Source: Arachis hypogaea (Eukaryota; Streptophyta; Magnoliopsida; Fabales; Fabaceae). From it: a DNA stretch of 64,000 nt. Every line of letters starts with the position of its first letter. Position 1 is the first letter of the stretch. Of this stretch, positions 10,550 to 61,958 are shown in pieces. Both the position numbers and the translations under genes were made by a program. The notes beneath the pieces are model-generated. The model did no database searches. It was given only the letters and a program-made list of their open reading frames with translations, and was not told the DNA's origin. The stretch is taken from NCBI RefSeq assembly GCF_003086295.3, contig NC_092044.1, positions 77,276,024 to 77,340,023 on the forward strand, read 5' to 3'.

Positions 10550-10588
10550 ACCTCCCCACACTTAAACATTAGCATGTCCTCATGCTAA
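10550..10588 (-). promoter_or_regulatory. LTR-proximal hairpin plus polypurine tract, Athila-like element
   Basis: On the minus strand TTAGCATG-AGGA-CATGCTAA (10588-10569) is a perfect 8-bp stem with an AGGA loop. TGTTTAAGTGTGGGGAGGT follows and touches the LTR. The purine run is a conventional PPT by position. Confidence 0.85.
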
Positions 10589-10589
10589 G

Positions 10590-11988
10590 TTGAAGGAGAT
10601 AAATATGAATGAGCAAGAACATGCAAGACTCATGTAATGCAATGCAACCTATATGCATATGAATGCAACTATATGAGTTGGCCTACATGATTAAAAATAG
10701 ATAAGTTCCCTAAGACAAAATATGGGGCAGATTTCACTAATTTAGAGCATATTGTAAAAGCAGATAAATTTGTAAGAAGATAGCTTGTAAAAGCAGGGAA
10801 TACAGGACTGAGCATTGAACCCTTACTGTTGGTGCATGTGCACTTTAATCATCTCTAGCATATGGGGTAATCACTCTATCCTTCTCTAATCATGCTTTCA
10901 AAAGATTTTGTTTTTCACCTAATCAATCAACAATTTTAAAATGCCAATGCAAACATCATGAGGTCTTTTCATGGTTGTAATGGGGCTAAGGTAAAGGTGA
11001 AGATACACATATGGCTAAGTGAGCTTATATATTGAATCTTTAATTAACCTAAGCTCCTACCTAACATACATATACTCTATATAATTTCAACATTCATCTT
11101 AGCTACCCAGGATTTCCTTTTCACATTCCATATTCATGTATCAACCTTTATTTTAATTTTATCATATGTGCATTGATTATTAAATTATGACTTATCATTG
11201 GGGTGATTTTGTCCCCTTATTCACTAAAATAAAGAAAATATATATATTTTTTTTCTTCTTCTTTTTTTTTTTGTATAGCTTATCAATGCACATAGATTTG
11301 TAATTTTCTTTTATGGTTTCACATGAATAGGTACCCAAATTCCCTTTATCCTATTATGATATTTTTTTCTATTACCCTTTATTCCCACAATTTTCCCATA
11401 CTCAATTAACACACAAATTCTATCTTAAGCTAACCAAAGATTCAATTGGGATTTTCAATTGTTTTTCGCTTAAGGCTAGTAATGTGGTACAATATGGAAC
11501 GAATGGGATTAAAAATAGCTCAAAGTGGTTAATAAAGGTAGTTAAAAATGGTTGGCTTATTTGGGATATGTGAGTTAAACAAACAATGGCCTCAATCATA
11601 TACATGCACATAACACATTAATTTTGGACATATAGGATAAAACAAAATTCAGATTACAATAATAGAGAAGTAAACACACAAGAAAAAAATTGTTTATGGT
11701 TAAATAGTGTAACCATGTATTTAGGCTCAAGGTCTCACGGGTTGTGTGTTCTTTTTAGCTCAAAAATTCTGTTCCAATTTCAACTTCAAACAAATTTAAC
11801 ATAAATATTTTGATTTAAATTAGTGAAATTTTGAAAAATATATGGTCTTAAAAGAAACTTATTGTCTTTTCAATCAGGTAGGACATGCATGCAATTAACC
11901 TACTAATATGCAATCTATCTTATTCTAAAGAAGAAGAAATTGGTGTTAGGGGGAAAAGAATTACCTCTGGAAGTCAGGTACTGACCGA
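10590..11988 (-). other. 3' noncoding region of the Athila-like element
   Basis: About 1.4 kb of AT-rich sequence lies between two hairpin-PPT modules. It contains a T-rich run near 11246-11270. No coding potential is seen. Confidence 0.7.
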
Positions 11989-12025
11989 CCTCCCCACACT
12001 TAAGGCTTTGCACCGTCCTCGGTGC
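11989..12025 (-). promoter_or_regulatory. Second, internal hairpin plus PPT-like site, Athila-like element
   Basis: On the minus strand GCACCG-AGGA-CGGTGC (12025-12010) has a 6-bp stem and the same AGGA loop as at 10569. AAAGCCTTAAGTGTGGGGAG follows. The stem overlaps the last codons of ORF3, and the ORF3 stop lies at 12000-12002. The stem is unrelated in sequence to the LTR-proximal one, while loop and tract are the same. Confidence 0.75.
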
Positions 12026-13244
12026 CATCTATCAGGAACAATGGTGGGCTGGTGGCAGTATCTCCACAGTCGGGACCGTCATGGCTCCCTGTTCTGGTAA
12101 AAGAAGTGGAGTTCAGAGTGCCTGGGTCCTCGTCAGGTCTGTGGTTGCCTGTGAGTAGCTCCTTGAGGTAATTGAAACGGCAGTGGTTGCGGCGCTCTCG
12201 GAGCTTTGCTTTCTTGTCTTGTTGGTCCAACCGCTTCAATATTTGATGCAGCAGCTGACTAATAGATGGTGGAGGAACTACAGCATCCTCTGTGGACTGG
12301 CTGGTAGTGGCAAGTGGTGGCCTGAGATATCTCCCGTAAGGGACGTACTGATCATCCCGTGGAAGTATGGCTTTGGTGTCTCCAGCTCTGTAGGAGACTT
12401 CGGCTGCTGAGACAAGATCAGAGACCAAGGCAGAGAAAGGTAGGTTGCCCGCGATTTGCACGTGTCCCATAGCATTCCGGATATGTCTCGGTAAATTTAG
12501 AGGCTGGTCTGTGAGGATGCACCATAGTAGAACGGCCATGTCTGCGGTGAAGGAGGACTCATGAGTGCTCAGGAAGACGTAATGGGACATAATCTGTGCC
12601 CATACGTGAGCCTCTAAGGTGAGTGCGGAAGCCAAAATTCCCTTAGGACAGGAACGATGGTATCCGAAGATCCATTTGCTGCCAGGTTGAGCGATAACTC
12701 TGAGAATAGCGTCCCAGTCAAAGTTGTATGCCTGGCGCTTGAGTGCGGCTTCTTGAAAAGCATCCAATCCTTCTGGAGAAGGGGGAAGATCTAAGGCTCA
12801 CTGAATGGCTTCTTCTGTAATGGGGACTTGCTTCTGACGTATATAAACAGACTGCAGGGTCGGCAGATGGAAGTTGGAGTAGAACTCATCTACCCAAGAA
12901 AGATTAACATGTCGTGGCTGTCTCTGTAGGAATCCTCAATGTCTTTGTGCAATTTGCGGCTCAACAAAGTCGGCAATACGAGGCGGAAGGATAAGAAGGT
13001 GTTCATTGTTGTAATTTCGAGCTGCCAGAATAGGAAACATCTGCTCACAGTAGCGATTTATAAATTGTGTAGTGTCCTTTGCTGGGAAGACTCTCTCCTT
13101 TTCATCGACCTTTATAATCCTTTTAATTCTTTTTGTTGAGGGCTTGACTGCAGTTGAAGAAGGCTCTGCCACTAATGCTCTTTTTGCTCCTTTCCTTGCT
13201 GTGGATTTGGGGGTAGCTTTCTCTTTCCCTTTCTTGGTGGCCAT
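12000..13244 (-). pseudogene. Third ORF (env-position, plant-transposon-protein-like) of the Athila-like element
   Basis: The start is MATKKGKEKATPKSTARK, a lysine-rich N-terminus. The frame runs 13244-12936, meets a stop after about 102 codons, continues through FYSNFHLPTLQS, meets a second stop near 12797, and stays open from 12767 to 12000 (255 codons). Features include a LSWVDEFYSNFHL stretch, a PLNLPRHIRN segment and a basic coiled-coil-like tail (LLHQILKRLDQQDKKAKLRE). I see no signal peptide or clear membrane segment, so an envelope protein is not supported. The architecture (basic N-terminus, central domain, coiled tail) resembles ORF2 of B and C. The putative plant transposon protein family is the best guess. 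Confidence 0.7.
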
Positions 13245-14705: not shown

Positions 14706-14748
14706 TAGCACTTTGCTTTAACGTCCTTAAGTTGGACGCTTCAGTAGC

Positions 14749-20374: not shown

Positions 20375-20380
20375 AAAAAT

Positions 20381-21864
20381 TGATGTGGCGGAAATTGGCG
20401 AGTTAAGAAATTATTAATAGAAATACGTTGCAAGTACAGTTCTTAACCAGCCGAAAATCTGCTTATCAATTTAGAAGGGTTGTCACAATATTGAAATTAA
20501 ATTACTGGAGTATGAATCCCAGGTCGTCTCCCAACGAGTTGCAGAAAGATGTGCTATTTTATCAATCAGGTGTTTTCAAAAATGGTTGAGTTGGTAAACA
20601 GGAAATTAATTTAGAGAATTTAATTAATTTTAAATAAAAGTCTTGACTGGGAGTAGATTAGTTGGAAACCCTATACTTGATGAAGTACTCTCAAGATTAA
20701 TTAATAATTGGGAGTTACTCTACTTAGTTATCCCTTACTAGGTAAAGGAAAGTCAAGCAAGCTAGAAAGCTGTTTCTAGTCACAAGTCCTAATCCTTCCC
20801 AACCTCTCCCTTGGGAAGGATTAGTGTTAATGATTAGAGGGTGATCCAACCATAAATCCAATTATAATTTCTCTCTTGAGTGATTCAACTCAAGGTTTCC
20901 TTTCAATCATCTCCCAATCAAGTTATAGAACTACTCACTCATCATAATTATAAACTTCACAGAATTAATGGGGAAAATAAAAGAAGACATAATAAATAAT
21001 AATGAAAGGGATTAATTGAAAATAAAAATAGTCTATATTAATAACTTGTGAAAATAATCCAATGTTAACTTTGGAGGAATTAAGAATATGGAAAAATAAA
21101 TGAAAAGTAAATAACAGACTATAGTAACTGGCACCGGAGGTAGACTCTTCTCAAAAGCTAAAGCCAAAACCTTCAAAATCCTAATTATAAATGTTCAAGT
21201 GCGTAAACCTAGGGGAGGAGTAAATTCATATCTAAAAACTAAAAATTATGCGGAATGAATGTTGTTCCCTGTCTCTGCATGTTCCCTGGCTCTAATCTGT
21301 GTTTCTGGGCTAAAAACTGGGTTGAAATCCGGCCCAGAAACTCTGCCAGCGACTTCTGAAATTCTGCAAATCGCGCACGTCGCGCGGCCGCATCGTCCAC
21401 GCGTTAGCGTCACTCAGCATTTCACGTACCACGCGTGCACGTCGTCCACGCATTCGCGTCGTTCATGCAGCTTCCAATCCGCGCGGTCGCGTCAGGCACG
21501 CGAGCGCGTCATGGTAATTCCTTCTATTTCACGCGGCCGCGTGAGCAATGTGACCGCGTGACTTCTCGCTGGTCATCTCCTCAATTCCTTGTGTTCCTTC
21601 CATTTTTGCATGCTTCTTCTTCATTCCTTACGCCATTCCTGCTCTATGAAGCCTGAAACACTTAACATATAGATCACGGCATCGAATGGTACGAAGGAAG
21701 ATAAAAATATACAACTAAAAGGTCCTTAGGAAGCAAGTTGTTAATCATAGGATATTTTTAGGAAAGAATTGTAAATACATGCAAATCATATGAATAAGTG
21801 GGTGAAAAGCTTGATAAAACCACTCAATAAAACACAATATAAACCATAAAATAGTGGTTTATCA
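20381..21864 (-). repeat. 5' LTR of the Athila-like element
   Basis: It is 1484 bp, paired with 9074-10549. The start on plus is TGATGTGGCGG and the end on plus is GTGGTTTATCA. Scattered substitutions and small indels separate the two LTRs (several percent by eye). Confidence 0.92.
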
Positions 21865-21869
21865 CCACT
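21865..21869. repeat. Target site duplication CCACT, right copy
   Basis: It matches 9069-9073. Element A LTR L1 resumes at 21870. Confidence 0.9.
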
Positions 21870-22063
21870 CTAACCCATGCCATCAAGTGCCAATCCGGAT
21901 CAACTTATTCAAGGCCAAATCCAAGTCAACCCATTTCATTAAAGCCCCAAAGCAAGCAAAGCCCATTGACATGACTCAAAGGCACAAGAAATAGTTAGAT
22001 TAGGAATTTCATTTAAATTGTAATTTGTTTTCAATTTTAATTTCATTTTCATTTTGTAAAGCC

Positions 22064-22071
22064 TATATAAA
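22064..22071 (+). promoter_or_regulatory. TATA box of LTR L1
   Basis: TATATAAA lies in GCCTATATAAAGGC, also present in L2 at 48504-48511. It is the likely RNA polymerase II promoter of element A. Confidence 0.7.
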
Positions 22072-24958: not shown

Positions 24959-24964
24959 AGTTTT

Positions 24965-24982: not shown

Positions 24983-26493
24983 TTGTTCGAGTATGGACAA
25001 CTGATGGTTCATCTTGTTGCTCAGATTAGGTAATTTTCTTTTTATTTTCTTTTCAAAAAGTTTTCAAAATTTTTCTTTTATTTTCGTTTTTCTAAAAGAA
25101 TATTTTCGAAAAATATAATAAAAATCCAAAAAAATTTATAAAATCATAAAAATAAAAAATATTTTGTGTTTCTTGTTTGAGTCTTGAGTCAATTTTTAAG
25201 TTTGGTGTCAATTGCATGCTTTAAAAATTTTTCTTGCATTTTTCGAAAATCCCATGCATTCATAGTATTCTTCATGATCTTCAAGTTGTTCTTGATAAGT
25301 CCTCTTGTTTGATCTTGATGTTTTCTTGTTTTGTGTTGTTTGTTATTTTTCATGTGCATTTTTCGTTTGTTAGAGTCCATGCATTAAAGATTTCTAAGTT
25401 TGGTGTCTTGCATGTTTTCTTTGCATCAAAAATTTTTCAAAATTATGTTCTTGATGTTCATCATGATCTTCAAAGTGTTCTTGGTGTTCATCTTAACATT
25501 CATAGTGTTCTTGCATGCATCTTGTGTTTCGATCCAAAATTTGCATGTTTTGGGTCATGTTTATGTTTTTCTCTCTCATCATTAAAAATTCAAAAATCAA
25601 AAAATATATTTTCCTTGTTTTTCTCCAAATTTTCGAAAATTTGAGTTGACTTAATCAAAAATTTTCAAAATTAGTTGTTTCTTACAAGTCAAGTCAAATT
25701 TTCAAATTTTAAAAATCTTATCTTTTCAAAATCTTTTTCAAAAATTATATCTTTTTCATTTTTTTTCCTATTTTTTCAAAAATTTCAAAAATCTTTTTCA
25801 AAATATTTTCAAAACCTCTTTCTTATCTTTACATCTAATTTTCTAAAATTAGCTAACAATTAATGTGATTGGTTCAAAAATTTGAAGTTTGTTACTTTCT
25901 TGTTAAGAAAGGTTCAATCTTTAAGTTCTAGAATCTTATCTTGTAGTTTCTTGTTAGTTAAGTCATTTTAAAAATTAAATCTTTTTATCTTTTATCTTAT
26001 CTTTTTCAAAAATTTTATCTTTTTCAAAATTTGATTAACTTCTTATCTTTTTATCTTTTTAAATTTGATTTTAATATCTTTTTCAACTAACTCTTTAACT
26101 TTTTGTTTGTTTCCTATCTTTTTCAAAACTAACTAACTACTTTTCCCTCTCTAATTTTTGAAAATATCTCATCTCTTTTTCAAAAAAAAAATTCTTTTTG
26201 TTTTAAATTTTAATTTTAATCTTATCTTACCTCTAATTTTAAAAAATTACTAACACCTTTTTAAAATTATTTTCGAAATTCTCCATCTCTTTTCTTATTC
26301 TATTTAATTATTTAATTACTAACACTTCTCTTCACCTCTCTTCATCTAAAAAAATCCGAACCCAATCTATCCCTTATGTTTGGATTCTTCACTTTTCTTT
26401 CTTCTATCCCCTTCTTTTTCTACTAACATAAAGGAATCTCTATACTGTGACATAGAGGATTCCTCTTTCTTTTCTTGTTTTCTTCTCTTTCAT
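24983..26493 (+). other. AT-rich 5' leader of element B
   Basis: Low-complexity TTTTTCAAAAATCTTT blocks are collinear with the leaders of C, D and 1. Two PPT-like AAGTTTGGTGTC motifs lie at 25198 and 25396. Open frames here are composition artefacts. Confidence 0.7.
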
Positions 26494-31633: not shown

Positions 31634-31675
31634 TGACCACACACCAAACTTAAAATATTGCTCGTCCTCGAGCAA
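31634..31675 (-). promoter_or_regulatory. Internal hairpin plus PPT-like module, element C
   Basis: On minus TTGCTCG-AGGA-CGAGCAA (31675-31658) is followed by TATTTTAAGTTTGGTGTGTG, about 35 bp before the ORF2 start. A GAA microsatellite lies just upstream (about 31682-31712 on plus). Confidence 0.65.
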
Positions 31676-32035
31676 TAGAAGAAAGAAGAGAAGAAGAAGA
31701 AGAAGAAGAAGATATGGTAGAGGGGAAGAGATGTAGGTTCGGCCTAGGTGAAGAAGAAGGGGTTGTGTTGTGTGAAAATGAAGTAGAATGGAAGGGTATA
31801 TATAGGGAGAGGGGGTATTGTTTGTTCGGCCATTTAGGGTGGGAATGGGTGGGAAAATGGTTTTGAATTTTGGAAGGTAGGTGGGGTTTATGGGGAAGAG
31901 TGGATGGATTTGAGTGGTGAAGGGGTGATTGGGAAGAGGAATTGAGGTGATTGGTGAAGAGTGTTGGGAAGTGTGACATGGGGAATACAAATCACAAAAA
32001 TAGGATTAGGAGGTAAGGTGGGAATATAGTAGGTG

Positions 32036-39600: not shown

Positions 39601-40033
39601 GGCATTTTACATGCCTATTTGGTGCAGGGATGGAATTCCTTGACACCTCAGGATCTGTGGACCCCACAGGATCGCCACCTACTATATTCCCACCTTACCT
39701 CCTAATCCTATTTTTGTGATGAGTATTCCCCATGTCACACTTCCCAACACTCTTCACCAATCACCTCAATTCCTCTTCCCAATCACCCCCTTCACCACTC
39801 ACATCCATCCACTCTTCCCCATAAACCCCACCTACCTTCAAAAATTCAAAACCATTTTCCCAACCATTCCCACCCTAAATGGCCGAACATACACTCCCCC
39901 TTCTCCCTATATATACCCTTCCATTCTACTTCATTTTCACACAACACAACCCCCTCTTCTTCACCTTGGCCGAACCTACATCTCTCCCTCTCTACAATAT
40001 TCTCTTTTTCTTCTTCTTCTCTTCTTTCTTCTA

Positions 40034-40070
40034 TTGCTCGAGGACGAGCAATATTTTAAGTTTGGTGTGG
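40034..40070 (+). promoter_or_regulatory. Internal hairpin plus PPT-like module, element B
   Basis: TTGCTCG-AGGA-CGAGCAA (40034-40051) is followed by TATTTTAAGTTTGGTGTGG. It lies 37 bp upstream of the ORF2 start. Confidence 0.65.
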
Positions 40071-42300: not shown

Positions 42301-42337
42301 TTGCTTGGGGACAAGCAACAATTTAAGTTTGGTGTTG
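42301..42337 (+). promoter_or_regulatory. LTR-proximal hairpin plus PPT, element B
   Basis: TTGCTTG-GGGA-CAAGCAA (42301-42318) is followed by CAATTTAAGTTTGGTGTTG, which abuts the LTR. Confidence 0.75.
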
Positions 42338-44008: not shown

Positions 44009-44013
44009 ACAAT
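44009..44013. repeat. Target site duplication ACAAT, right copy (element B)
   Basis: It matches 23283-23287. Confidence 0.9.
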
Positions 44014-45338: not shown

Positions 45339-45357
45339 TGACACTAAAAGAGCACTT

Positions 45358-45375
45358 GTTGGGAGGCAACCCAAC
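45358..45375 (+). promoter_or_regulatory. Post-ORF hairpin GTTGGG-AGGCAA-CCCAAC, element A
   Basis: A perfect 6-bp stem with loop AGGCAA lies 20 bp after the ORF stop, in a context shared with B-E. Confidence 0.65.
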
Positions 45376-46330
45376 CTTAGGTAACATGTTATTTCTCTGC
45401 TTGGTTTACTTTCTTTCTTTGATGTGTTTAAATTTCAATAAATTGGCATATGATTATATTCTAAGTTTGGTGTTGCCCTGCAACAATCTGTTTTCAATCT
45501 CTATGGATGATTGAATCAAATTTGAATTGAAAGTGTCACACTAATATTCTAAGTTTGGTGTGCCACTTATTTCCTATGCAATCTATTCAGCAGCACCACT
45601 TGTCTGCATAATCATAATGCCTTGTAGTGTTATCTTTCTTTTAGTTAGACAATTTTAGTTTTCTCTTTGTTTTAGTCATTTCCTTGTTTTTAATGCTTTC
45701 TGTTATTAACTATTTTTGTTAATACATCACCAAGAAATCCTTATTCATGATAGATTCTTGGCTTGGTGATTGTATTTAACATATAACAGTTTCATTTAGT
45801 CTTAGTTCAAATAAAATGGACATATGATTGCATTCTAAGTTTGGTATTACTATGAAACAAAATTTGCTTCCAATCTTTACTGGATACTTGCATCAACTCC
45901 AAGTGAAAGTGTCACACTAAGTTTGGTATGCCACTCATTCTTTATGCAATGTATCATGCACACCCTCTTATTTTTGCAATCACAATGTCTCTGTTTCTCT
46001 GTGCCTTCATGGTTATCTTTGATTTTGCTTGCTTAAAACACATGTACTACTAACATTTCATTGTGTAAGACACTCATAATCCATCTTAGCCCCGTCACCA
46101 CTGTTTTAATTGTTGCTTGAGGATGAGCAAGCACTCTGAAGTTGGTAGGGGAAGTGGAAGAATAGGAGGAAAATGACAACAATAGAGATGAATTACAAGG
46201 TTTTAAAGTTCCTTTTCCTCTCATTTGTTTCCAACACTTTAAATTGCATGATTGTCTTTATCTTCTCTATTTACATGTGTGTATGAATAAGCATAGCCTG
46301 AATTTTGATCTTTAACATGTTGCTATGCCA
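45376..46330 (+). other. 3' noncoding region of element A, first part
   Basis: Four CTAAGTTTGGT(G/A)T motifs lie at about 45461, 45548, 45836 and 45918. A hairpin TTGCTTG-AGGA-TGAGCAA (46113-46130, with two G-T wobble pairs) is followed by a degraded tract GAAGTTGGTAGGGG. No gene is seen. Confidence 0.65.
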
Positions 46331-47127
46331 CTATGTCTACAAACTTGAGTTTTGTAAAGTTCAAAGCAGTAAAGTATCATGATCTTAAACAAAAAAGGAA
46401 TTAAAGAAGAACTTAGCATGTGCATACAAGTATTGGAAGGCTAGCATGATTAATTGTTTCTCAATTGCATTAGATTTTATTTAATTGAAGTTTTCATCTG
46501 GGACATTTTGTGAAATCTTTTGAAATCATGAAAACCTTGAAGAAGCAAATGCAATAAAGGCAAGAAAAGAAAAGGGAAAGAATGAGAAAGCTAAAGGCTC
46601 TGAGTACCAATGACAATTAAATTGTTAAGTACTTGTGGTGTTTATGTATCAAGCAAAAAGCTTGAAAACAAAACACTTAGAGTCAAGGTTAGGCTCAAGT
46701 TCAAATGCACTCCCTCAAAGCTCAAGGCTCTGAGCATCAATGATTAGAGAGTAAAGAAAAGAAACACATGAGCTTAAAGAAGTCCTCTAATTAAATGCTT
46801 GTGGTGCTTATGTATCAAGTGGTAATACTTGAAAACAAAGCATTTAGAGTCGTAGCTTTGTTATCAACTCATGGGGCGAAGCACCCAAAAGGAGAAGCTA
46901 ATAAGAAAATCAAAAGCTTGTTTCAAGGAAGAAATATAATGAAAAGATTTCATAAATTGAGCTAGATAGAAGCATCAATCATTTACATTTCTTTTGTGAT
47001 TGTGGCATGCATAGAAAACTAGCCAACCATGAACATTGAGTTGCTATTCTTCTTAACTTGGATTGTCAATCTTTATTGCATGATTCTTTTCTTGCTTGGG
47101 GACAAGCAAGGTTTAAGTTTGGTATTG
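46331..47127 (+). other. 3' noncoding region of element A, duplicated blocks and PPT
   Basis: It is collinear with 7131-7907. Two copies of the GGCTCTGAG...TTAGAG block lie at about 46595 and 46727. Hairpin CTTGCTTG-GGGA-CAAGCAAG is at 47091-47110, then the tract abutting L2. Confidence 0.8.
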
Positions 47128-49142: not shown

Positions 49143-49385
49143 AATTTTTGTAGAAAATCAAAAGCTTGTTTCAAGGAAGAAATAAAATGAAAAGATTTCA
49201 TAAATTGAGCTTGATAGAAGCATCAATCATTTACATTTCTTTTGTGATTGTGGCATGCATAGAAAACTAGCCAACCATGAACATTGAGTTGCTATTCTTC
49301 TTACCTTGGATTGTCAATCTTTATTGCATGATTCTTTTCTTGCTTGGGGACAAGCAAGGTTTAAGTTTGGTGTTGTGATGACATG
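49143..49385 (+). repeat. Duplicated 3' end of element A (internal tail plus start of LTR L3)
   Basis: After L2 comes TTTTTGTAGAAAATCA, then a second copy of the internal tail (equivalent to 46908-47127) with the hairpin at 49339-49358. The first 10 bp of another LTR (L3, from 49376) follow. Element D interrupts L3 there. The pattern fits a tandem duplication through the shared word AGAAAATCA. Confidence 0.75.
49381..49385. repeat. Target site duplication ACATG, left copy (element D)
   Basis: It matches 58792-58796. Confidence 0.9.
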
Positions 49386-51005
49386 TGGTGCACGAAATTG
49401 TGATCACTACAACTTCGCACAACTAACCAGCAAGTGTACTGGGTCGTCCAAGTGATAAACCTTACGTGAGTAAGGGTCGATCCCACAGAGATTGTTGGTA
49501 TGAAGCAAGCTATGGTCACCTTGTAAATCTTAGTCAGGCAAACTCAAATGGGTATGGTGATATATGAATAAAACATAAAGATAAAGATAGAGATACTTAT
49601 GTAATTCACTGGTAGGAATTTCAGATAAGAGTATGAAGATGCTGGTCCCTTCCGTCTCTCTGCTTTCCTACTGTCTTCATCCAATCCTTCTTACTCCTTT
49701 CCATGGCAAGCTTAAGCAAGGGTTTCACCGTTGTCAGTGGCTACCTCCCATCCTCTCAGTGGAAATGTTCAACGCACCCTGTCACGGCACGGCTATCCAT
49801 CTGTCAGTTCTCGATCAGGCCGGAATAGAATCCAGTGATTCTTTTGCGTCTGTCACTAACGCCCCGCCCTCAGGAGTTTGAAGCACGTCACAGTCATTCA
49901 GTTATTGAATCCTACTCAGAATACCACAGACAAGGTTAGACCTTCCGGATTCTCTTGAATGCCGCCATCAGTTCTAGCCTATACCACGAAGACTCTGATC
50001 TCACGGAATGGCTGGCTCGGTTGTCAGGCGAGCACTCGGTTGTCAGGCGATCAACCATGCATCGTGTATCAGGAATCCAAGAGATATTCACCCAATCTAA
50101 GGTAGAACGGAGGTGGTTGTCAGGCACACGTTCATAGGTGAGAATGATGATGAATGTCACGGATCATCACATTCATCAAGTTGAAGAACAAGTGATATCT
50201 TGGAACAAGAACAAGCGGAATTGAATAGAAGAACAATAGTAATTGCATTAATACTCGAGGTACAGCAGAGCTCCACACCTTAATCTATGGTGTGTAGAAA
50301 CTCCACCGTTGAAAATACATAAGTGATAGTGTGATCATTGGCCTCGGCCCCAGAGAGGGAACGAGAAGAACCAAGATGAAAATACAATAGTAAAAGGTCC
50401 TACTTATAGAGAACTAGTAGCCTAGGGTTTATAGAGATGAGTAAATGACATAAAAATCCACTTTCGGGCCCACTTGGTGTGTGCTTGGGTTGAGCATTGA
50501 AGCATTTTCGTGCAGAGACTCTTCTTGGAGTTAAACGCCAGCTTTGGTGCCAGTTTGGGCGTTTAACTCCCATTCTTGTGCCAGTTCCGGCGTTTAACGC
50601 TGGGAATTCTGAGGGTGATTTTGAACGCCGGTTTGGGCCATCAAATCTTGGGCAAAGTATGGACTATCATATATTGCTGGAAAGCCCAGGATGTCTACTT
50701 TCCAACGCCGTTGAGAGCGCGCCAATTGGGCTTCTGTAGCTCCAGAAAATCCGCTTCGAGTGCAGGGAGATCAGAATCCAACAGCAACTGCAGTCCTTTT
50801 TAGTCTCTGAATCAGATTTTTGCTCAGGTCCCTCAATTTCAGCCAGAAAATACCTGAAATCACAGAAAAACACACAAACTCATAGTAAAATCCAGAAAAG
50901 TGAATTTTAACTAAAAACTAATAAAAATATACTAAAAACTAACTAGATCATACTAAAAACATACTAAAAACAATGCCAAAAAGCGTACAAATTATCCGCT
51001 CATCA
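49386..51005 (-). repeat. 3' LTR of element D
   Basis: On plus it runs TGGTGCACGAAATTGTGATC to TATCCGCTCATCA. The TATA-like TACTTATA (plus) is at 50401-50408. Palindrome-type units lie at about 50525-50610. Confidence 0.93.
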
Positions 51006-51042
51006 CAACACCAAACTTATATTGTTGCTTGTCCTCAAGCAA
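51006..51042 (-). promoter_or_regulatory. LTR-proximal hairpin plus PPT-like tract, element D
   Basis: On minus TTGCTTG-AGGA-CAAGCAA (51042-51025), with an AGGA loop, is followed by TATAAGTTTGGTGTTG next to the LTR. Confidence 0.72.
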
Positions 51043-51922
51043 CTGAAAATCAAACAAGATAAAAGAAGAGAATATGCAATGAATTCCAAAAACATCTATG
51101 AAGATCAGTATTAATTAGATGAGCGGGGCTTTTAGCTTTTTGCCTCTGAACAGTTTTGGCATCTCACTCTATCCTTTGAAATTCATAATGATTGGCTTCT
51201 TTAGGAACTCAGAATCCAGATAGTGTTATTGATTCTCCTAGTTAAGTATGATGATTCTTGAACACAGCTACTTATTGAGTCTTGGCCGTGGTCCAAAGCA
51301 CTCTGTCTTCCAGTATTACCACCGGATACATACATGCCACAGACACATAACTGGGTGAACCTTTTCAGATTGTGACTCAGCTTTGCTAGAGTCCCCAATT
51401 AGAGGTGTCCAGGGTTCTTAAGCACACTCTTTTTGCCTTGGATCACAACTTTATTTCTTTCTTTTTCTTTTTTTTCTCTTTCTTTTTCTTTCTTCTTCTT
51501 TTTTTTTCGAAATTTTTTTTTTGTATTCACTGCTTTTTCTTGCTTCAAGAATCATTTTAATGATTTTTCAGATCCTCAGTAACATGTCTCCTTTTTCATC
51601 ATTCTTTCAAGAGCCAACATTCATGAACCACAAATTTAAAAGACATATGCACTGTTTAAGCATACATTCAGAAAACAAAAGTATTGCCACCACATCAAAA
51701 TAATCAAACTGTTATAAAATTCAAAATTCATGCAATTCTTTTCTTTTTCAATTAAGAACATTTTTCATTCAAGAAAGGTGATGGATTCATAGGACATTCA
51801 TAACTTTAAGGCATAGACACTAAGACACTAATAATCACAAGACACAAACATAGACAAACATAAGCACTAAAATTCGAAAAACAGGAAAATAAAGAACAAG
51901 GAAATTAAAGAACGGGTCCACC
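51043..51922 (-). other. 3' noncoding region of element D
   Basis: It is collinear with 29442-30511 of C. A pyrimidine-rich run (plus) lies at about 51450-51530. No gene is seen. Confidence 0.65.
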
Positions 51923-52541: not shown

Positions 52542-52583
52542 TTTACCACACCAAACTTAAAAGGTTTGCTCGTCCTCGAGCAA
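52542..52583 (-). promoter_or_regulatory. Internal hairpin plus PPT-like module, element D
   Basis: On minus TTGCTCG-AGGA-CGAGCAA (52583-52566) is followed by ACCTTTTAAGTTTGGTGTGG. It is retained although ORF2 downstream is decayed. Confidence 0.65.
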
Positions 52584-53004
52584 AAGAAGAAAGAAGAGAG
52601 TAGAAGAAGAAGAAATGAGGAAGAAGGGAATGGCTTTTTGTTCGGCCAAAAAGGGAGAGAAGTGGTGGTTTGGTTGTGTGAAAATGAAGGAGTGAAGATG
52701 GGTTTATATAGGAGTGGGGGGGCTCATGGTTCGGTCATGTATGGGTGGGTTTGGGAGGGAAAGTGGTTTGAATTTGAAGGGTGAGGTAGGTGGGGTTTTA
52801 TGAAGGATGGATGTGAGTGGTGAAGAGAAAGATGGGATTTGATAGGTGAAGGGTTTTTGGGGAAGAGGTGTTGAGGTGATTGGTGAATGGGTGAAGAAGA
52901 GAGAGAGTGGTGGGGTAGGTGGGGATCCTGTGGGGTCCACAGATCCTGAGGTGTCAAGGAAAAGTCATCCCTGCACCAAGTGGCAAGCAAAAATGCGTTT
53001 TGAG

Positions 53005-53155: not shown

Positions 53156-53290
53156 TCTCCTCCAGGGTATGCTGTTTTTCTTTCTGTTTTTCATTCTGTT
53201 TTTGCTTTTTCAATTGATTTTGTGACTTCTCATGATCATCAACCTACAAAAGAACATAAAATAACAAAGGAAAATAGATAAAATATAACA

Positions 53291-53306
53291 TTGGGTTGCC
53301 TCCTAA
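53291..53306 (-). promoter_or_regulatory. Post-gag hairpin, element D
   Basis: On minus TTAGG-AGGCAA-CCCAA has one G-T wobble, at the conserved position after gag-protease. Confidence 0.55.
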
Positions 53307-53355
53307 CAAGCACTTCTTTAATGTCAGTAGCTTGACAGAGGGCTCTCATGGAGCC

Positions 53356-55695
53356 TCAGAAATATTCAGAGCAATGTTGGAACCTCCCAACACCAAACTT
53401 AGAGTTTGAATGTGGGGGTTCAACACCAAACTTAGAAGTTGGTTGTGGCCTCCCAACACCAAACTTAGAGTTTGACTGTGGGGGCTCTGTGTGGCTCTGT
53501 TTTGAGAGAAGCTCTTCATGCTTCCTCTCCATGATGACAGAGGGATATCCTTGAGCCTTAAACACAAAGGATTCTTCATTCACTTGAATGATCAATTCTC
53601 CTCTATCATCATCAATCACAGCCCTTGCTGTGGCTAGGAAGGGTCTGCCAAGGTTGATGGATTCATCCATGCACTTCCCAGTCTCTAGGACTATGAAATC
53701 AACAGGGATGTAATGGTCTTCAACTTTTACCAGAACATCCTCTACAAGTCCATAGGCTTGTTTTCTTGAATTGTCTGCCATATCTAGTGAGATTTTTGCA
53801 ACTTGCACCTCAAAGATCCCTAACTTCTCCATTACAGAGAGAGGCATGAGGTTTACACTTGACCCTAAGTCACACAAGGCCTTCTTGAAGGTCATGGTGC
53901 CTATGGTACAAGGTATTGAAAACTTCCCAGGATCCTGTCTCTTTTGAGGCAGTTTCTGCCTAGACAAGTCATCCAGTTCCTTGGTGAGCAAAGGAGGTTC
54001 ATCTTCCCAAGTCTCATTCCCAAATAACTTGTCATTTAGCTTCATGATTGCTCCAAGGTATTTAGCAACTTGCTCTTCAGTGACATACTCATCCTCTTCA
54101 GAGGAAGAATACTCATCAGAGCTCATGAATAGCAGAAGTAAGTTCAATGGAATCTCTATGGTCTCATTTTGAGCCTCAGATTCCCATGGTTCCTCATTGG
54201 GGAACTCATTGGAGGCCAGTGGATGTCCATTGAGGTCTTCCTCAGTGGCGTTCAATGCCTCTTCCTCCTCTCCAAATTCGGCCATATTGATGGCTTTGCA
54301 CTCTCCTTTTGGATTTTCTTCTGTATTGCTTGGAAGAGTACTAGGAGGGAGTTCAGAAATTTTCTTGCTCAGCTGACCCACTTGTGCCTCCAAATTTCTA
54401 ATGGAGGACCTTATTTCAGTCATGAAACTTTGAGTGGTTTTGATTAGATCAGAGACCATGGTTGCTAAGTCAGAGGTATTCTGCTTAGAACTCTCTGTCT
54501 GTTGCTGAGAAGATGATGGAAAAGGCTTGCTATTGCTAAACCTGTTTCTTCCACCATTATTGTTGTTGAAACCTTGTTGAGGTCTCTGTTGATCCTTCCA
54601 TGAGAGATTTGGATGATTTCTCCATGAAGGATTATAGGTGTTTCCATAGGGTTCTCCCATGTAATTCACCTCTTCCATTGAAGGGTTCTCAGGATCATAA
54701 GCTTCTTCTTCAGATGAAGCTTCCTTAGTACTGCTTGGTGCATTTTGCATTCCAGACAGACTTTGAGAAATCATATTGACTTGTTGAGTCAATATTTTAT
54801 TCTGAGCCAGTATGGCACTCAGAGTGTCAATCTCAAGAACTCCTTTCTTCTGATTGGTCCCATTGTTCACAGGATTCCTTTCGGAAGTGTACATGAATTG
54901 GTTATTTGCAACCATTTCAATCAGCTCTTGAGCTTCTGTAGGCGTCTTCTTTAGATGAAGAGATCCTCCAGCAGAGCTATCCAAAGACATCTTGGACAGT
55001 TCAGACAGACCATCATAGAAAATACCTATGATGCTCCATTCAGAAAGCATATCAGAGGGACGCTTTTTGATTAATTGTTTGTATCTTTCCCAAGCTTCAT
55101 AGAGGGATTCTCCTTCCTTCTGTCTGAAGGTTTGGACTTCCACTCTAAGCTTACTCAATTTTTGAGGTGGAAAGAACTTTGCCAAGAAGGCATTGACTAG
55201 CTTTTCCCAAGAGTTCAGGCTTTCTTTAGGTTGTGAGTCCAACCATGTTCTAGCCCTGTCTCTTACAGCAAAAGGGAATAGCATAAGTCTGTAGACCTCA
55301 AGGTCAACCCCATTAGTCTTGACAGTGTCACAGATTTGCAAGAACTCAGCTAAAAACTGATGAGGATCTTCCAATGGAAGTCCATGGAACTTGCAATTCT
55401 GTTGCATTAGAGAAACTAATTGAGGCTTAAGCTCAAAGTTGTTTGCTCCAATGGCAGGGATAGAGATGCTTCTCCCATAGAAGTCGGGAGTAGGTGCAGT
55501 AAAGTCACCCAGCACCTTCCTTGCATTGTTGGCATTGTTGTTGTTTTCGGCTGCCATGGGTTCTTCTTCTTTGAAGATTTCTGTTAGGTCCTCTACAGAG
55601 AATTGTGCCTTGGCTTCTCTTAGCTTTCGCTTCAAGGTCCTTTCAGGTTCAGGATCAGCCTCAACAAGAATGCTTTTGTCCTTACTCCTGCTCAT
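53356..55695 (-). CDS. Intact gag-protease ORF of element D (779 aa)
   Basis: The start MSRSKDKSILVEADPEPERT is conserved in B, C and 1. An Asn-rich stretch follows near residue 52. The retrotransposon gag core is at about residues 140-220 (LMLFPFAVRDRARTWLDSQP, FFPPQKLSKLRVEVQTFRQ, LYEAWERYKQLIKK). QVGQLSKK is near 460. The retropepsin-like CDLGSSVNLMPLSVMEKLG has its Asp at about residue 609, NLGRPFLATARAV is about 95 residues later, and three SKFGV repeats stand at the C-terminus. No zinc knuckle and no pol are present. It is predicted to form the particle and process itself, with reverse transcriptase and integrase from another element. It is the longest uninterrupted ORF in the window. 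Confidence 0.9.
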   Translation of the reverse strand: MSRSKDKSILVEADPEPERTLKRKLREAKAQFSVEDLTEIFKEEEPMAAENNNNANNARKVLGDFTAPTPDFYGRSISIPAIGANNFELKPQLVSLMQQNCKFHGLPLEDPHQFLAEFLQICDTVKTNGVDLEVYRLMLFPFAVRDRARTWLDSQPKESLNSWEKLVNAFLAKFFPPQKLSKLRVEVQTFRQKEGESLYEAWERYKQLIKKRPSDMLSEWSIIGIFYDGLSELSKMSLDSSAGGSLHLKKTPTEAQELIEMVANNQFMYTSERNPVNNGTNQKKGVLEIDTLSAILAQNKILTQQVNMISQSLSGMQNAPSSTKEASSEEEAYDPENPSMEEVNYMGEPYGNTYNPSWRNHPNLSWKDQQRPQQGFNNNNGGRNRFSNSKPFPSSSQQQTESSKQNTSDLATMVSDLIKTTQSFMTEIRSSIRNLEAQVGQLSKKISELPPSTLPSNTEENPKGECKAINMAEFGEEEEALNATEEDLNGHPLASNEFPNEEPWESEAQNETIEIPLNLLLLFMSSDEYSSSEEDEYVTEEQVAKYLGAIMKLNDKLFGNETWEDEPPLLTKELDDLSRQKLPQKRQDPGKFSIPCTIGTMTFKKALCDLGSSVNLMPLSVMEKLGIFEVQVAKISLDMADNSRKQAYGLVEDVLVKVEDHYIPVDFIVLETGKCMDESINLGRPFLATARAVIDDDRGELIIQVNEESFVFKAQGYPSVIMERKHEELLSKQSHTEPPQSNSKFGVGRPQPTSKFGVEPPHSNSKFGVGRFQHCSEYF

Positions 55696-57182: not shown

Positions 57183-58791
57183 TTGTGCATGAAATTGTGA
57201 TCACTACAACTTCCCACAACTAACCAGCAAGTGTACTGGGTCGTCCAAGTAATAAACCTTACGCGAGTAAGGGTCGATCCCACAGAGATTGTTGGTATGA
57301 AGCAAGCTATGGTCACCTTGTAAATCTTAGTAAGGCAAACTCAAATGGGTATGGTGATATATGAATAAAACATAAAGATAAAGATAGAGATACTTATGTA
57401 ATTCACTGGTAGGAATTTCAGATAAGAGTATGAAGATGCTGGTCCCATCCGTCTCTCTGCTTTCCTACTGTCTTCATCCAATCCTTCTTACTCCTTTCCA
57501 TGGCAAGCTTAAGCAAGGGTTTCACCGTTGTCAGTGGCTACCTCCCATCCTCTCAGTGGAAATGTTCAACGCACCCTGTCACGGCACGGCTATCCATCTG
57601 TCGGTTCTCGATCAGGCCGGAATAGAATCCAGTGATTCTTTTGCGTCTGTCACTAACGCCCCGCCCTCAGGAGTTTGAAGCACGTCACAGTCATTCAGTC
57701 ATTGAATCCTACTCAGAATACCACAGACAAGGTTAGACCTTCCGAATTCTCTTGAATGCCGCCATCAGTTCTAGCCTATACCACGAAGACTCTGATCTCA
57801 AGGAATGGCTGGCTCAGTTGTCAGGCGAGCACTCGGTTGTCAGGCGATCAACCATGCATCGTGTATCAGGAATCCAAGAGATATTCACCCAATCTAAGGT
57901 AGAACGGAGGTGGTTGTCAGGCACACGTTCATAGGTGAGAATGATGATGAATGTCACGGATCATCACATTCATCAAGTTGAAGAACAAGTGATATCTTGG
58001 AACAAGAACAAGCAGAATTGAATAGAAGAACAATAGTAATTGCATTAATACTCGAGGTACAGCAGAGCTCCACACCTTAATCTATGGTGTGTAGAAACTC
58101 CACCGTTGAAAATACATAAGTGATAATGTGATCATTGGCCTCGGCCCCAGAGAGGGAACCAGAAGAACCAAGATGAAAATACAATAGTAAAAGGTCCTAC
58201 TTATAGAGAACTAGTAGCCTAGGGTTTACAGAGATGAGTAAATGACATAAAAATCCACTTCCGGGCCCACTTGGTGTATGCTTGGGCTGAGCATTGAAGC
58301 ATTTTCGTGCAGAGACTCTTCTTGGAGTTAAACGCCAGCTTTGGTGCCAGTTTGGGCGTTTAACTCCCATTCTTGTGCCAGTTCCGGCGTTTAACGCTGG
58401 GAATTCTGAGGGTGATTTTGAACGCCGGTTTGGGCCATCAAATCTTGGGCAAAGTATGGACTATCATATATTGCTGGAATGCCCAGGATGTCTACTTTCC
58501 AACGCCGTTAAGAGCGCGCCAATTGGGCTTCTGTAGCTCCAGAAAATCCGCTTCGAGTGCAGGGAGGTCAGAATCCAACAGCAACTGCAGTCCTTTTTAG
58601 TATCTGAATCAGATTTTTGCTCAGGTCCCTCAATTTCAGCCAGAAAATACCTGAAATCACAGAAAAACACACAAACTCATAGTAAAATCCAGAAAAGTGA
58701 ATTTTAACTAAAAACTAATAAAAATATACTAAAAACTAACTAGATCATACTAAAAACAATGCCAAAAAGCGTACAAATTATCCGCTCATCA
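57183..58791 (-). repeat. 5' LTR of element D
   Basis: It is 1609 bp, paired with 49386-51005. The TATA-like TACTTATA (plus) is at 58198-58205. Confidence 0.93.
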
Positions 58792-58842
58792 ACATGTCAT
58801 CATGTCATGTTTTTCTATGCTTTTTCATACAAGAAATTGACA
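58792..58842 (+). repeat. Continuation of LTR L3 of element A, internally deleted
   Basis: After the duplication ACATG, 58797-58835 matches the first part of L1 (from TCATCATGTC to AAGAAATTGA). It then jumps to the LTR end CAATCA. TTTTTGTAGAAAATCA follows, as after L2. So L3 lost about 1.9 kb. Confidence 0.7.
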
Positions 58843-59404
58843 ATCAAGTTTTTGTAGAAAATCATCATTTGGATTGGATGATTTTTTTTTTAAATCCGAT
58901 CCAATCTGATCCAATTTCAAGTGGTTTGGATTGGATTGAATTTGCAATTTTGTAAATTAAAAAATATATATAACAAGTCTCAACATCAAATTTTAAATAC
59001 TAACAATGACATAATAAGTCTCAATAATATCTTAAAAACCAATGATATCATAACAATAAAAATAAAATTATAAGTTAGTTAAAATAAATAAATAAATTAG
59101 ATTTTAAACATAAAATATTTATTAAATAATAATAATAATACATGAATAATATAAAAATATATAATAAATTGAACATGTTATAAGTATAATTGTAAATATA
59201 ATAATAAAATAATAACATTATAGCACATTGTGTGGTTTTGATTGGATTGGTTATGAAAAGTATATCTGAAATCCGATCCGATCCAACAGTTTGCAAAAAA
59301 TAGAATCAAATCAAATCCAAATTAGTGTAGCTTTAATCGGTTTTTGGTTTGGATTGGATTGGATGAGCGGTTTAATTTGATCGATTTGGATTTGAACACC
59401 CCTA
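58843..59404. repeat. AT-rich repeat with GGATTGGATT motifs, probable truncated TIR transposon
   Basis: Inverted runs of GGATTGGATT and AATCCGATCCAATC flank an almost pure A/T core (58950-59220). The right end TTGAACACCCCTAG resembles the end of hAT-like non-autonomous elements common in plants. No matching left end is seen, so it is truncated or rearranged. It replaces the 5' part of element E. Confidence 0.5.
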
Positions 59405-60730
59405 GGTGCAAGTGGGACAAATTGCTAAGCAATTGGCAATAAGACCTACTAACACTTTTCCAAGTGATACCATTCTCAAAACAAGGGAATAATGCAATAC
59501 CATAAGCTTGAGGAGTGGAAGAATGATTAGTAAGAAGAATGAAGATTAAACTGAGGCTACAAAAGAGGAGTTAGGAGTGCAAAAGCAAGAACAAAAGGCC
59601 CCTATACCAAGTAAAATTCTAATGAAGAATGAGTCAGTGGAGGCATAAAAACCAAGAATCATATACCCTCAAAGGCTCAAGGGGGAGAACAAGAAAAAGT
59701 AATACTCCAAATTCTTGGAGATATTCAAGACACTACACATCAACATTCCTTTCATAGAAGTACTTGAGCAAATGCCACTGTATGTTAAATTCATGAAGGA
59801 ATTGTTGTCCAAGAAAAGCTCTTTAAAGGGAGGCTAAATAGTGGTCATGACTAGAGAGTGTTTATTCAAAGGAATTTTCCATGTAAGAAGAAAGGTCCGA
59901 GAAGTTTTCAAATTCTCTGCAACATTGGAAACACAACCTTTGAAAGAGAATTGTGTAATTTAGGGGCAAGTATCAATTTGATCCCTCCTTCTGTGATGAA
60001 AAAGTTGCATATCCAAGAGGTGAAACCCACAAGAATAGCTGTACAAATGGCAGACAAGTCAATAAAGCATGAACATGGGGTAATTGAGAATGTCTTGATC
60101 AAAGTGAAAATTTTTCTCCCAGCAGATTTTGTTATTCTTGACATGGAGGAAAATGAGAATGCCTCCATCATTCTAGGGAGACCTTTATTAGCCACTAGAC
60201 GAGCCCTCATTGATGTTGAAAAGGGTGAATTAATATTGAGGGTGCATGATAAGCACTTAGTTTTTCATGTTTTCAAAATCATTTATCATTCAAGTGACAA
60301 GGAGGATTGAATGAAGGTTGAATCAAGTGATGCAAGCCTCCAAAAACCCCTTGATAAAGCACCCCTAGAAGCTCCACCACCATGCTTGAAAGGAAAAGAA
60401 GAAATAGAAGTGGTGCAACAAGTTGAAGGCACAAAAGAAGCTAACAAGAATGTGCAACCTAAGCCCCCGTTTGTAGATACCATCAAGTTTCCCTTTGACA
60501 TCAAGCCAAAGTTTGATGTTGAGTGTGCACCATCACCTAAGGGAAAAGAGAAGACTCTAAAGAAGCCCAGGGGTGGAGGAATAAGAAGATCTCTACGAGT
60601 GACTTCTCACCTAGATAACAAGTGGTACAATTCCCTTCGCCACCATGGATATGGCCAGACAAATCCAACAAATGGTATGGACCTTACACAGAAAACAAGA
60701 TCCTCTCCTTGGAACACACTGAACTCATAG
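59405..60730 (+). pseudogene. Element E gag-protease remnant
   Basis: The gag tail (59405-59850) carries several stops and a frameshift but keeps FLEIFKTLHINIPFIEVLEQMPLYVKFMKELL in pieces, the linker typical of Athila protease. Protease is open from 59858 to 60310, with LCNLGASINLIPPSVMKKLHIQ, where Asn replaces the catalytic Asp (NLGA instead of DLGA), and IILGRPLLATRRA. A second frame, 60311-60730, encodes a Lys/Pro-rich linker ending WYNSLRHHGYGQTNP. The missing Asp means the protease is inactive. Confidence 0.8.
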
Positions 60731-60842
60731 ATGAAGACAATAGGAGAAAATTTACAGAGAGAAGGGAGGCATTAGAGCACTATGATCCACCTCCAACCTA
60801 GCAAAAATCAACCATCAAGCTAGTGACGTTAATGAAGTGCTT

Positions 60843-60859
60843 GTTGGGAGGCAACCTAA
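60843..60859 (+). promoter_or_regulatory. Post-ORF hairpin, element E
   Basis: TTGGG-AGGCAA-CCTAA has one G-T wobble pair, in the same context (GCTTGTTGGGAGGCAACC) as in A and B. Confidence 0.55.
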
Positions 60860-60985
60860 TCGTCATTAACCGTTAATTTTGTATTTAATTTCGTTTGTCT
60901 TATTTGAATAACCACATGCTTACTTACATAACTTTTGAGGATAATCTTGATTATTCATAATTCCATCACCATTATTTTTCTTTGA

Positions 60986-61020
60986 TGCTTGAGGACAAGC
61001 AACCATTCTAAGTTTGGTGT
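60986..61020 (+). promoter_or_regulatory. Internal hairpin plus PPT-like module, element E
   Basis: TGCTTG-AGGA-CAAGCA (60986-61001) is followed by ACCATTCTAAGTTTGGTGT. Confidence 0.65.
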
Positions 61021-61920
61021 TAGAGGTTATGCTCTACATAACCTAAAAGATGATAAAGGGGAAAGTAACTCTATCCTTGAGCTTTTATTTCTTATATCTT
61101 GCATCTATTTTTGTCCTTAGTTATTAATCATGATTCATTCATATTTCATGCCACCTCACTTTTGAAATTGCTTACCCCCAGTATCTTTAAGCATGCAACA
61201 AAGAGTTTTTTAATGAAAAAATTGAAGAAATATTTTTAAATTTGGAGCAAGTAAGATTATGAAAAGTGAAAGTTCTAATAATGTGAGTATGTCATGGAGT
61301 TACATGTTTGTGAAAACTTGCATAGGGAGCTCTAAGACTTAGAATGAAGTTTACAAAAGTATTATGGAGGTTATCAAAAATATATAAAACCAAGAAGTAG
61401 TAAGAAAAGAAAGGAAAGAAAAACAAAAAATAAGGCACAAGGATCTGAGCATCAATGGCTAGGAAGGTAAAAAAGAACCAAAGCTCAAAGAGTTGTATTC
61501 CTAAGCTATGTTCTTGTGGTGTAACTGTGTCAAGAAAATATTGAGATACAATATTTAGAGTCAATGCCAAGTGCAAATAAAAGAAAAGCCAAAGGCTCTG
61601 AGCACCACTGACGAGGAAGAATAAAAAGAAGTGTGACCTCAAAGAGTTTTCCAGTTAAGTGGTTGTGGTGTTTCTGTGTTAAGCAAAGCTTAAGACAAAA
61701 TATTTAGAGTCACGGCTAGGCTTAAGGTGCAAAGCACCCAATAAAAGAAAAGGGGAATCCTATCTTTAAAGTAATAAAGAGACCTCCATAATATAATCTG
61801 AATGGTATTTCGGTGTTTTAAGACTTTCAACTGTAAGCCTAGAAAGCACTGGAATCCATACATGCTCACACAATTTTTCAAATTGTTCAAATTTAGAGGA
61901 CACTTTTGTGCATAGTTCTT
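61021..61920 (+). other. 3' noncoding region of element E
   Basis: It contains two copies of the conserved block (about 61440-61590 and 61590-61745) with ATCTGAGCATCAATGG, TTCTTGTGGTG and ATTTAGAGTCA. No gene is seen. Confidence 0.65.
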
Positions 61921-61922
61921 TT

Positions 61923-61958
61923 CTTGTTTGGGGACAAACAAGATCTTAAGTTTGGTTA
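61923..61958 (+). promoter_or_regulatory. LTR-proximal hairpin plus tract, element E
   Basis: CTTGTTTG-GGGA-CAAACAAG (61923-61942) is followed by ATCTTAAGTTTGGTT. Relative to element A the stem has a paired C-G to T-A change. Confidence 0.7.

Follow-up and report, generated by a model that had tools for sequence, protein, structure and literature searches.

A covarying hairpin beside polypurine-tract-like motifs in Athila-type retrotransposons of Arachis: a candidate plus-strand priming module

Self-alignment and edge reading show that a 64,000-nucleotide stretch of Arachis DNA (C9:77276024-77340023; the window) contains nested Athila-type long terminal repeat (LTR) retrotransposons, here called E1-E4, E7 and families A and B. 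In these elements we found a hairpin with an RGGA tetraloop (AGGA or GGGA) followed by a tract that resembles a polypurine tract (PPT), at the edge of the 3′ LTR and once more 0.9-2.3 kb upstream. As judged from sequence, pairing in the stem has survived substitutions in both arms, and the loop is likewise conserved, as are its distances of 12-15 nt from the tract and 25-27 nt from the LTR; the hairpin goes with terminal and internal tracts, and none of the leader tracts seen has it. On balance, we lean towards the view that hairpin and tract together would form a cis-acting RNA module for plus-strand priming.

All 15 sites named in a first-pass annotation of this DNA were read directly and were also recovered by a hairpin scan, and its claim that the loop is always GGGA or AGGA held at 15/15 sites. 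Each site has 6-9 stem pairs around the tetraloop and then a TTAAGTTTGGTG-like tract or a variant of it:

624..643, minus strand: E4 internal hairpin TTTGCTCG-AGGA-CGAGCAAA; tract 607-619
7870..7891, plus strand: family A terminal hairpin TCTTGCTTG-GGGA-CAAGCAAGG; tract 7893-7905, LTR head from 7908
10569..10588, minus strand: E7 terminal hairpin TTAGCATG-AGGA-CATGCTAA; tract 10553-10565, 3′ LTR ~9073-10549
12010..12025, minus strand: E7 internal hairpin GCACCG-AGGA-CGGTGC, final codons of the PF20167 open reading frame (ORF); tract 11991-12003 contains the stop codon
29423..29442, minus strand: E2 terminal hairpin GTTGCTTG-GGGA-CAAGCAAC; tract 29407-29419, 3′ LTR 27760-29404
31656..31677, minus strand: E2 internal hairpin TATTGCTCG-AGGA-CGAGCAATA; tract 31641-31653, upstream of the PF20167 ORF (ATG 31600)
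40032..40053, plus strand: E3 internal hairpin TATTGCTCG-AGGA-CGAGCAATA; tract 40056-40068
42301..42318, plus strand: E3 terminal hairpin TTGCTTG-GGGA-CAAGCAA; tract 42323-42335, 3′ LTR 42338-44009
46113..46130, plus strand: family A internal hairpin TTGCTTG-AGGA-TGAGCAA, two wobbles, probably decayed; degenerate tract
47090..47111, plus strand: family A terminal hairpin; tract 47113-47125, LTR head from 47128
49338..49359, plus strand: family A terminal hairpin; tract 49361-49373, LTR head from 49376, interrupted by E1
51024..51043, minus strand: E1 terminal hairpin GTTGCTTG-AGGA-CAAGCAAC; tract 51008-51020, 3′ LTR 49388-51005
52565..52584, minus strand: E1 internal hairpin TTTGCTCG-AGGA-CGAGCAAA; tract 52548-52560
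60986..61001, plus strand: family B internal hairpin TGCTTG-AGGA-CAAGCA; tract 61008-61020
61922..61943, plus strand: family B second hairpin TCTTGTTTG-GGGA-CAAACAAGA; variant tract from 61946, no LTR copy found in the window

The geometry of these sites is narrow. The distance from loop end to the AAG of the tract is 12-15 nt at 15/15 sites, and in all seven terminal copies with an LTR head the loop ends 26 nt (E1, E2, E3), 27 nt (E7) or 25 nt (the three A sites) before the LTR, with the stem base 16-19 nt from the LTR head; LTR ends were taken from BLAST, with a precision of 1-2 bases. Terminal status is based on LTR pairs and target site duplications (TSDs) in E1, E2, E3 and E7, and on a site like a primer-binding site (PBS) at the far end of the repeat for the three A sites. 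Thus, of the eight sites that had been placed beside 3′ LTRs, seven abut an LTR head and the one at 61923 has no LTR copy in the window. The tract is exactly TTAAGTKTGGKG at 10/15 sites, with E1_T, A2_T, A_I, B_T and B_I (T, terminal; I, internal) carrying variants. The pairing of an internal with a terminal copy was found in E1, E2, E3, E7, A and B. In E7 the two copies have the same tract and different stems, and BLAST matches between families that span the module are 43-54 bp long. The 14 nt preceding the hairpin are 50-100% pyrimidine.

The window contains 20 RGGA-tetraloop hairpins with a stem of at least 6 pairs, namely the 15 sites and 5 others; the average for the 256 possible loops, taken from 605 hairpins in all, predicts about 4.7. 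With 100 nt flanks, the minimum predicted pairing probability over the six inner pairs was at least 0.86 at 12/15 sites, the exceptions being E7_T (0.30), B_I (0.49) and A_I (0.10); with 30/40 nt flanks E1_T also dropped, to 0.49. Local folding-energy z-scores were mostly modest (-4.1 to 0.65), and the case is therefore carried by covariation and position. No Rfam 15 family matched the window at gathering score.

The covariation results show that pairing is conserved beyond the letters of the stem. In the window alignment (11 distinct rows), 95.5% of cells were paired compared to 76.4% after shuffling, and 0/500 shuffles matched this value; 6/8 stem pairs were altered on both sides, and slid structures paired at most 52.3%. 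Genome rows for which loop and spacing, but not pairing, had served as criteria (58 sites, 24 of them distinct) were 90.1% paired compared to 64.4% when shuffled, with 41 doubly changed cells. For these rows 0/500 shuffles reached the observed pairing, doubly changed cells or covariation score, while the number of pairs with double changes was reached by 96/500 and that of further pair types by 4/500. Compensated changes among copies of the same kind include TTAGCATG/CATGCTAA versus TAAGCATG/CATGCTTG at terminal sites, where the partly unpaired TTAGCATG/CATGCTTG is also present, and GCACCG/CGGTGC, GCATCG/CGATGC and GCACGG/CCGTGC at internal sites. Under a null model in which the columns of these rows evolve independently along their tree, 0/1000 simulations equalled the real rows in pairing, in covariation score or in how many rows have the six inner pairs all formed. 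At stem pair 2, the 14-mer counted anywhere in the genome occurs 64511 times as T:A, 15019 as C:G, 868 as T:G and 820 as C:A. Taken together, the shuffles, the tree simulations and the genome pair counts support the earlier proposal of selection on pairing. Two parts of that proposal fell away: the families are not unrelated, since six elements share one PBS-like site, and the G-T wobble copy at 46113 is no evidence for selection, because the usual internal hairpin would turn into it by C-to-T changes at two CpG positions and its predicted pairing probability is 0.10.

The association with particular tracts was also seen outside the window. In the 2.557-Gb assembly, TTAAGTKTGGKG had 215859 matches compared to 10112 for the reversed pattern. 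The 100 matches listed all lie within the initial 12.8 Mb of contig C1; 96 of these tracts were examined and 4 were left out, and 54/96 had a perfect tetraloop hairpin of at least 6 pairs upstream, always 12-14 nt before AAG; the loops were AGGA in 36, GGGA in 15 (RGGA in 51) and AGGG in 3. With tract classes assigned by downstream letters after inspection of the data, a hairpin was found at 37/39 terminal tracts abutting an LTR head (34 perfect, 3 damaged, 2 without), at 19/19 internal tracts (16 perfect, 3 damaged), at 4/23 other tracts and at 0/15 leader tracts of this sample. One more LTR-head type, related to that of E7, has a spacing of 26 nt, its site being the sole one in the set examined with a second LTR-head copy in its stretch. 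In tract-chosen stretches totalling 200 kb there were 39 inverted repeats (78 strand counts) with a G-C-closed tetraloop and at least 6 Watson-Crick pairs, and 24/24 of the G-C-closed hairpins with an RGGA loop precede the tract or a variant. A separate repeat on C1 (10960141 and 10969205; L214, L218) has TTAAGTTTGGGG tracts preceded by GACC-ATTC-GGTC or GACC-ATTT-GGTC, a hairpin of 4 pairs whose loop differs from RGGA.

A covariance model (R1) scored the 15 training sites at 36.1-71.7 bits and found no new module in the window, where the next matches were hairpin-less tracts at 22.2 bits or less; on 100 of the 169 control loci (853 kb, retrieved with patterns for the tract or the stem) its best match was 21.2 bits. 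As a chance control, GGAC followed by a gap and TTTAAGTKTGGKG matched viral contigs at least 120 times, and among the matches listed none had 5 or more pairs and one had 4. The stem-plus-tract pattern had 0 matches in viral contigs, the stem alone had 38, counted without individual inspection, and no relative with a reverse transcriptase (RT) was confirmed there. In public genome contigs, the 11 matching records were all bacterial by title, and no plant relatives were found. At the protein level, 5/41 Stylosanthes scabra proteins (P0035, P0036, P0039, P0041 and P0060, among 83 homologs) have LLEDKQPFKFG, or a sequence close to it (LPEDKQ, LLENKQ), where their reading frame runs across the internal module, shortly before a likely ORF start. 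These peptides fit a hairpin plus tract, the pairing itself being masked by codon degeneracy. The E7 internal hairpin lies within the codons for ..DGTEDGAKP at the end of the PF20167 ORF; 17/32 homologs end in a form of this peptide with an ED or GD core (including TEDRA and IEDGA), and in 2 others the core is EN.

From these data we infer that the hairpin serves plus-strand priming. Plus-strand priming in cis is suggested by the fixed geometry relative to tract and LTR edge, the second copy at an internal tract, the lack of a hairpin at leader tracts and its persistence in elements where no RT was detected; E1-E3 keep both copies although the scanned ORFs gave no RT or integrase for them, which would fit a cis signal acted on in trans. 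The primer made at the terminal copy would define the LTR end, and a second start, similar to a central PPT (cPPT), may come from the internal copy. Most speculatively, RT copying the RNA 3′ to 5′ might stall at the hairpin base just past the tract, its RNase H site 13-18 nt behind would then sit near the PPT/LTR edge, and this positioning could sharpen the cut that generates the primer 3′ end. The polymerase-to-RNase H distance is given as 17-18 nt for HIV-1 (human immunodeficiency virus type 1; PMC5766924) and ~13 bp for Ty3 (PMC5371799). That the hairpin is a ruler for plus-strand priming across a plant retrotransposon lineage, an RT stall placing the RNase H cut and the cassette giving a second start, is a tentative idea that we regard as doubtful.

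Several points weigh against the priming interpretation. The tract also recurs without a hairpin: with at most one mismatch, YTAAGTTTGGTGT occurs 32 times in the window compared to 0.31 expected, and 11/32 occurrences follow a hairpin of the 15 sites, the remainder lying in element leaders, a tandem repeat at the end of gag and the family A linker. The tract is thus a repeated motif, and only two kinds of copy are marked by the hairpin. As in a PPT, it directly abuts the 3′ LTR in E1, E2, E3 and E7; it is not all-purine, TTAAGTTTGGTGTTG being T-rich and TTAAGTGTGGGGAGG of E7 richer in purines, and is therefore called PPT-like only. Moreover, it has been argued that RNA structure per se is an unlikely modulator, since a PPT acts when hybridised to DNA (PMC3616985). 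The observed range of spacings fits a ruler and simple adjacency alike, and the comparison with RT geometry uses the HIV-1 and Ty3 distances and not those of an Athila RT. When the model was trained without E7, E7_T scored 21.7 bits compared to 20.8 for the best hairpin-less tract (0.9 apart) and E7_I was missed; a sequence-only model trained without E7 listed neither, and this held-out test lends the module weak support. The significant covariation that the first-pass annotation had put forward as a check was found for the whole structure and not for single pairs: in a home-made per-pair tree test, which is not R-scape and used 29 short rows, no pair had E<0.05 (best 0.19), the top 4 of 190 column pairs being proposed stem pairs. 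Finally, the sense wobble T:G (868) is about as frequent genome-wide as the C:A mismatch (820); these near-equal mixed classes look like symmetric decay and do not distinguish an RNA from a DNA strand.

An unlikely alternative is that the hairpin is a Gag/nucleocapsid binding site, for packaging, dimerisation or PPT chaperoning, in which the RGGA loop is read and the PPT is a mere neighbour. The constancy of that loop (15/15 window sites, 51/54 perfect hairpins of the sample) and the retention of the hairpin in elements without detected RT would suit such a role, and nucleocapsid protein raises primer specificity (PMC3616985). However, packaging would require neither a set distance to the tract (12-15 nt) or to the LTR (25-27 nt) nor a copy at each of two tracts with the leader tracts bare. 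We give less credence still to an inverted repeat that works as DNA, as a hairpin in minus-strand cDNA or a cruciform, for example as a plus-strand stop or a site for integrase or repair. The pairing evidence is strand-neutral, as the mixed classes above illustrate, but a DNA-protein site would preserve letters rather than pairing, and the internal copy would have no evident role.

It is improbable that the hairpin serves the extra PF20167 ORF as a signal for translation, splicing or RNA stability, with the terminal copy derived from the internal one. In E2 and E3 the internal copy does lie just before this ORF and after a pyrimidine tract, and the five Stylosanthes gene models read through the module; in E7, however, the internal copy forms the last codons of the ORF, with the stop in the tract and the codons kept by relatives, and terminal copies directly precede the LTR with no ORF between. 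A translation role is made less likely by the inconsistent placement of the internal module relative to the ORF, whereas the hairpin is never parted from its tract there. A general translation signal was dismissed given the position of E7_I. The already disfavoured and very improbable reading that the stem has no function, with common descent of a few families and CpG decay imitating covariation, draws on the few independent lineages, on T:A/C:G at stem pair 2 being a double CpG transition and on the non-significant single pairs, but T:A to A:T and C:G to G:C changes, impossible by CpG decay, remain paired, 0/1000 tree simulations reach the observed pairing, and mixed forms are rare (1688 versus 79530).

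The elements that host the module are arranged as follows:

23288-24959 and 42338-44009, plus strand: E3 LTRs; TSD ACAAT; interrupted by E2
27760-29404 and 36455-38099, minus strand: E2 LTRs; TSD AGGCA; inserted in E3
49388-51005 and 57185-58791, minus strand: E1 LTRs; TSD ACATG; inserted in a family A LTR head
~9073-10549 and 20380-21864, minus strand: E7 LTRs; TSD AGTGG; inserted in family A
Left window edge, minus strand: E4, truncated by the edge
Roughly 58841-63689: family B

LTR pairs are present in E1, E2, E3 and E7, and their TSDs are all 5 bp. A common PBS-like 18-mer, with 0-2 mismatches, is found in E1, E2, E3, E4, E7 and A; by eye it starts 5 nt behind the LTR in E7 and 6 nt in E1-E3. 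The PBS-like site is thus close to the LTR, as in the Athila lineage of Ty3/gypsy elements, with offsets within one base of the 5 bp of Calypso and Diaspora (PMC1142308). A match to tRNA-Asp is given for such elements (PMC1142308), and the site here is PBS-like at the sequence level only. A domain scan covered 20 of the 22 window ORFs of at least 150 amino acids, shorter ORFs being outside it. It detected gag in E1, E2, E3 and E7, PF20167 in E2, E3 and E7, and RT, RNase H and integrase in E7; among the scanned ORFs, no RT, RNase H or integrase domain was found outside E7, and no PF20167 in E1, A or B. PF20167 is tied to Athila ORF1 (PMC11728184), and E2, E3 and E7 thus carry the extra 3′ ORF of the Athila lineage. 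An Arachis hypogaea protein matches the ORF after the E2 internal site with 96% identity across 94% of that ORF, and the host is accordingly peanut or a close relative. E1-E4 may be FIDEL/Feral-like. Family A is an LTR-internal-LTR tandem in which only a short internal stretch, 46904-47125 (repeated from 49152), separates two LTRs, an order that resembles a recombination product; its parts lie at 7132-9072, 21865-22705, 46337-49387 and 58792-58840.

Tracts outside the module have features of their own. One hairpin-less tract of this kind is:

25196..25208, plus strand: hairpin-less tract in the E3 leader; others at 4888 (minus), 25394 (plus), 36013 (minus), 36212 (minus), 56642 (minus) and 56819 (minus)

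The 5′ leaders have two conserved tract-like motifs per element without an RGGA hairpin, at 4888, 25196, 36212 and 56819 and at 4698, 25394, 36013 and 56642; the downstream letters are CAATTGCAT for one and CTTGCATG or CTTACATG for the other. At the 3′ end of gag, 33-nt tandem repeats each contain a tract motif (32636-32714, minus; 39030-39108, plus; 53390-53468, minus); several of these copies can pair with CCAAACT or TCAAACT just upstream, and those of E1 encode SKFGV repeats.

A second conserved island near the end of gag consists of a hairpin GTCA-[AGCTAN]-TGAC, then (A/G)TTAAAGAAGCGCTT, then a hairpin TTGGG-[AGGCAA]-CCCAA. It occurs in the window at 39127-39211 and, on the same plus strand, 45295-45379 and 60780-60864, on the minus strand at 32533-32617, 53286-53370 and 1392-1476, and in further loci (L170, L171, L172, L175, L176, L178, L179, L181, L182, L184, L187). 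The second hairpin shows the paired swaps TCGGG/CCCGA and CATGGG/CCCATG, and the first is lost in E4 and L175. In 17 rows, 92.5% of cells were paired; 0/500 shuffles matched the pairing and covariation score and 16/500 the further pair types. The order of hairpin, GUUAAA spacer and hairpin is like that of the Xrn1-resistant coremin motif, but the first loop base does not fit YGAD/YGNNAD and the spacer is longer (PMC10520033); we note this as a lead only.

A description of the hairpin was not found in the open-access literature searched, outside which lie most subscription journals and Wright and Voytas 2002; the accessible parts of PMC1142308, PMC2829016, PMC6317226, PMC10085805, PMC11381356, PMC2410132, PMC3185511, PMC5766924, PMC5371799, PMC11728184, PMC3616985, PMC4439019 and PMC10520033 do not describe it. 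The internal PPT copy, part of the pair for which the first-pass annotation knew of no description, is known already: Athila4 and Calypso have one extra PPT in the linker (Wright and Voytas 2002, cited in PMC2829016). Provisionally, we regard the hairpin at the PPT as new and the internal PPT as known. A covarying hairpin locked to a PPT would be a concrete, testable cis element in an abundant plant retrotransposon lineage, and GCTTGRGGACAAGC, with 64511 occurrences in the 2.56-Gb genome and 0 for reversed-pattern controls, may mark element ends and orientation.

Among known systems, Athila4 and Calypso are likewise Athila-lineage elements with an internal PPT besides the terminal one; the citing text, as far as accessible, is silent on a hairpin, whereas here both tracts have a covarying hairpin at fixed spacing (PMC2829016). 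Sireviruses also have a conserved structure linked to the terminal PPT and multiple PPT copies per element, but their PPT lies in the loop with the right arm inside the LTR, whereas here both arms are 5′ of the tract at 15/15 sites; in addition, Sirevirus upstream PPTs are without the repeat, the internal copy here has the hairpin, and the former are Ty1/copia and the latter Ty3/gypsy elements (PMC2829016). The U-box or T-box of several retroviruses and Ty1 is an element just 5′ of the PPT that is important for plus-strand priming; unlike the hairpin here, it consists of T-rich letters, and in our elements the hairpin occupies the place immediately 5′ of the tract, with the pyrimidine-rich stretch upstream of it (PMC10085805). 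HIV-1 and simian immunodeficiency virus (SIV) similarly have two PPTs per genome (cPPT and PPT) with a shared local structure, but in these viruses pairing involves the G-rich 3′ end of the PPT itself, whereas in the Arachis elements a separate hairpin precedes the tract (PMC3616985, PMC4439019).

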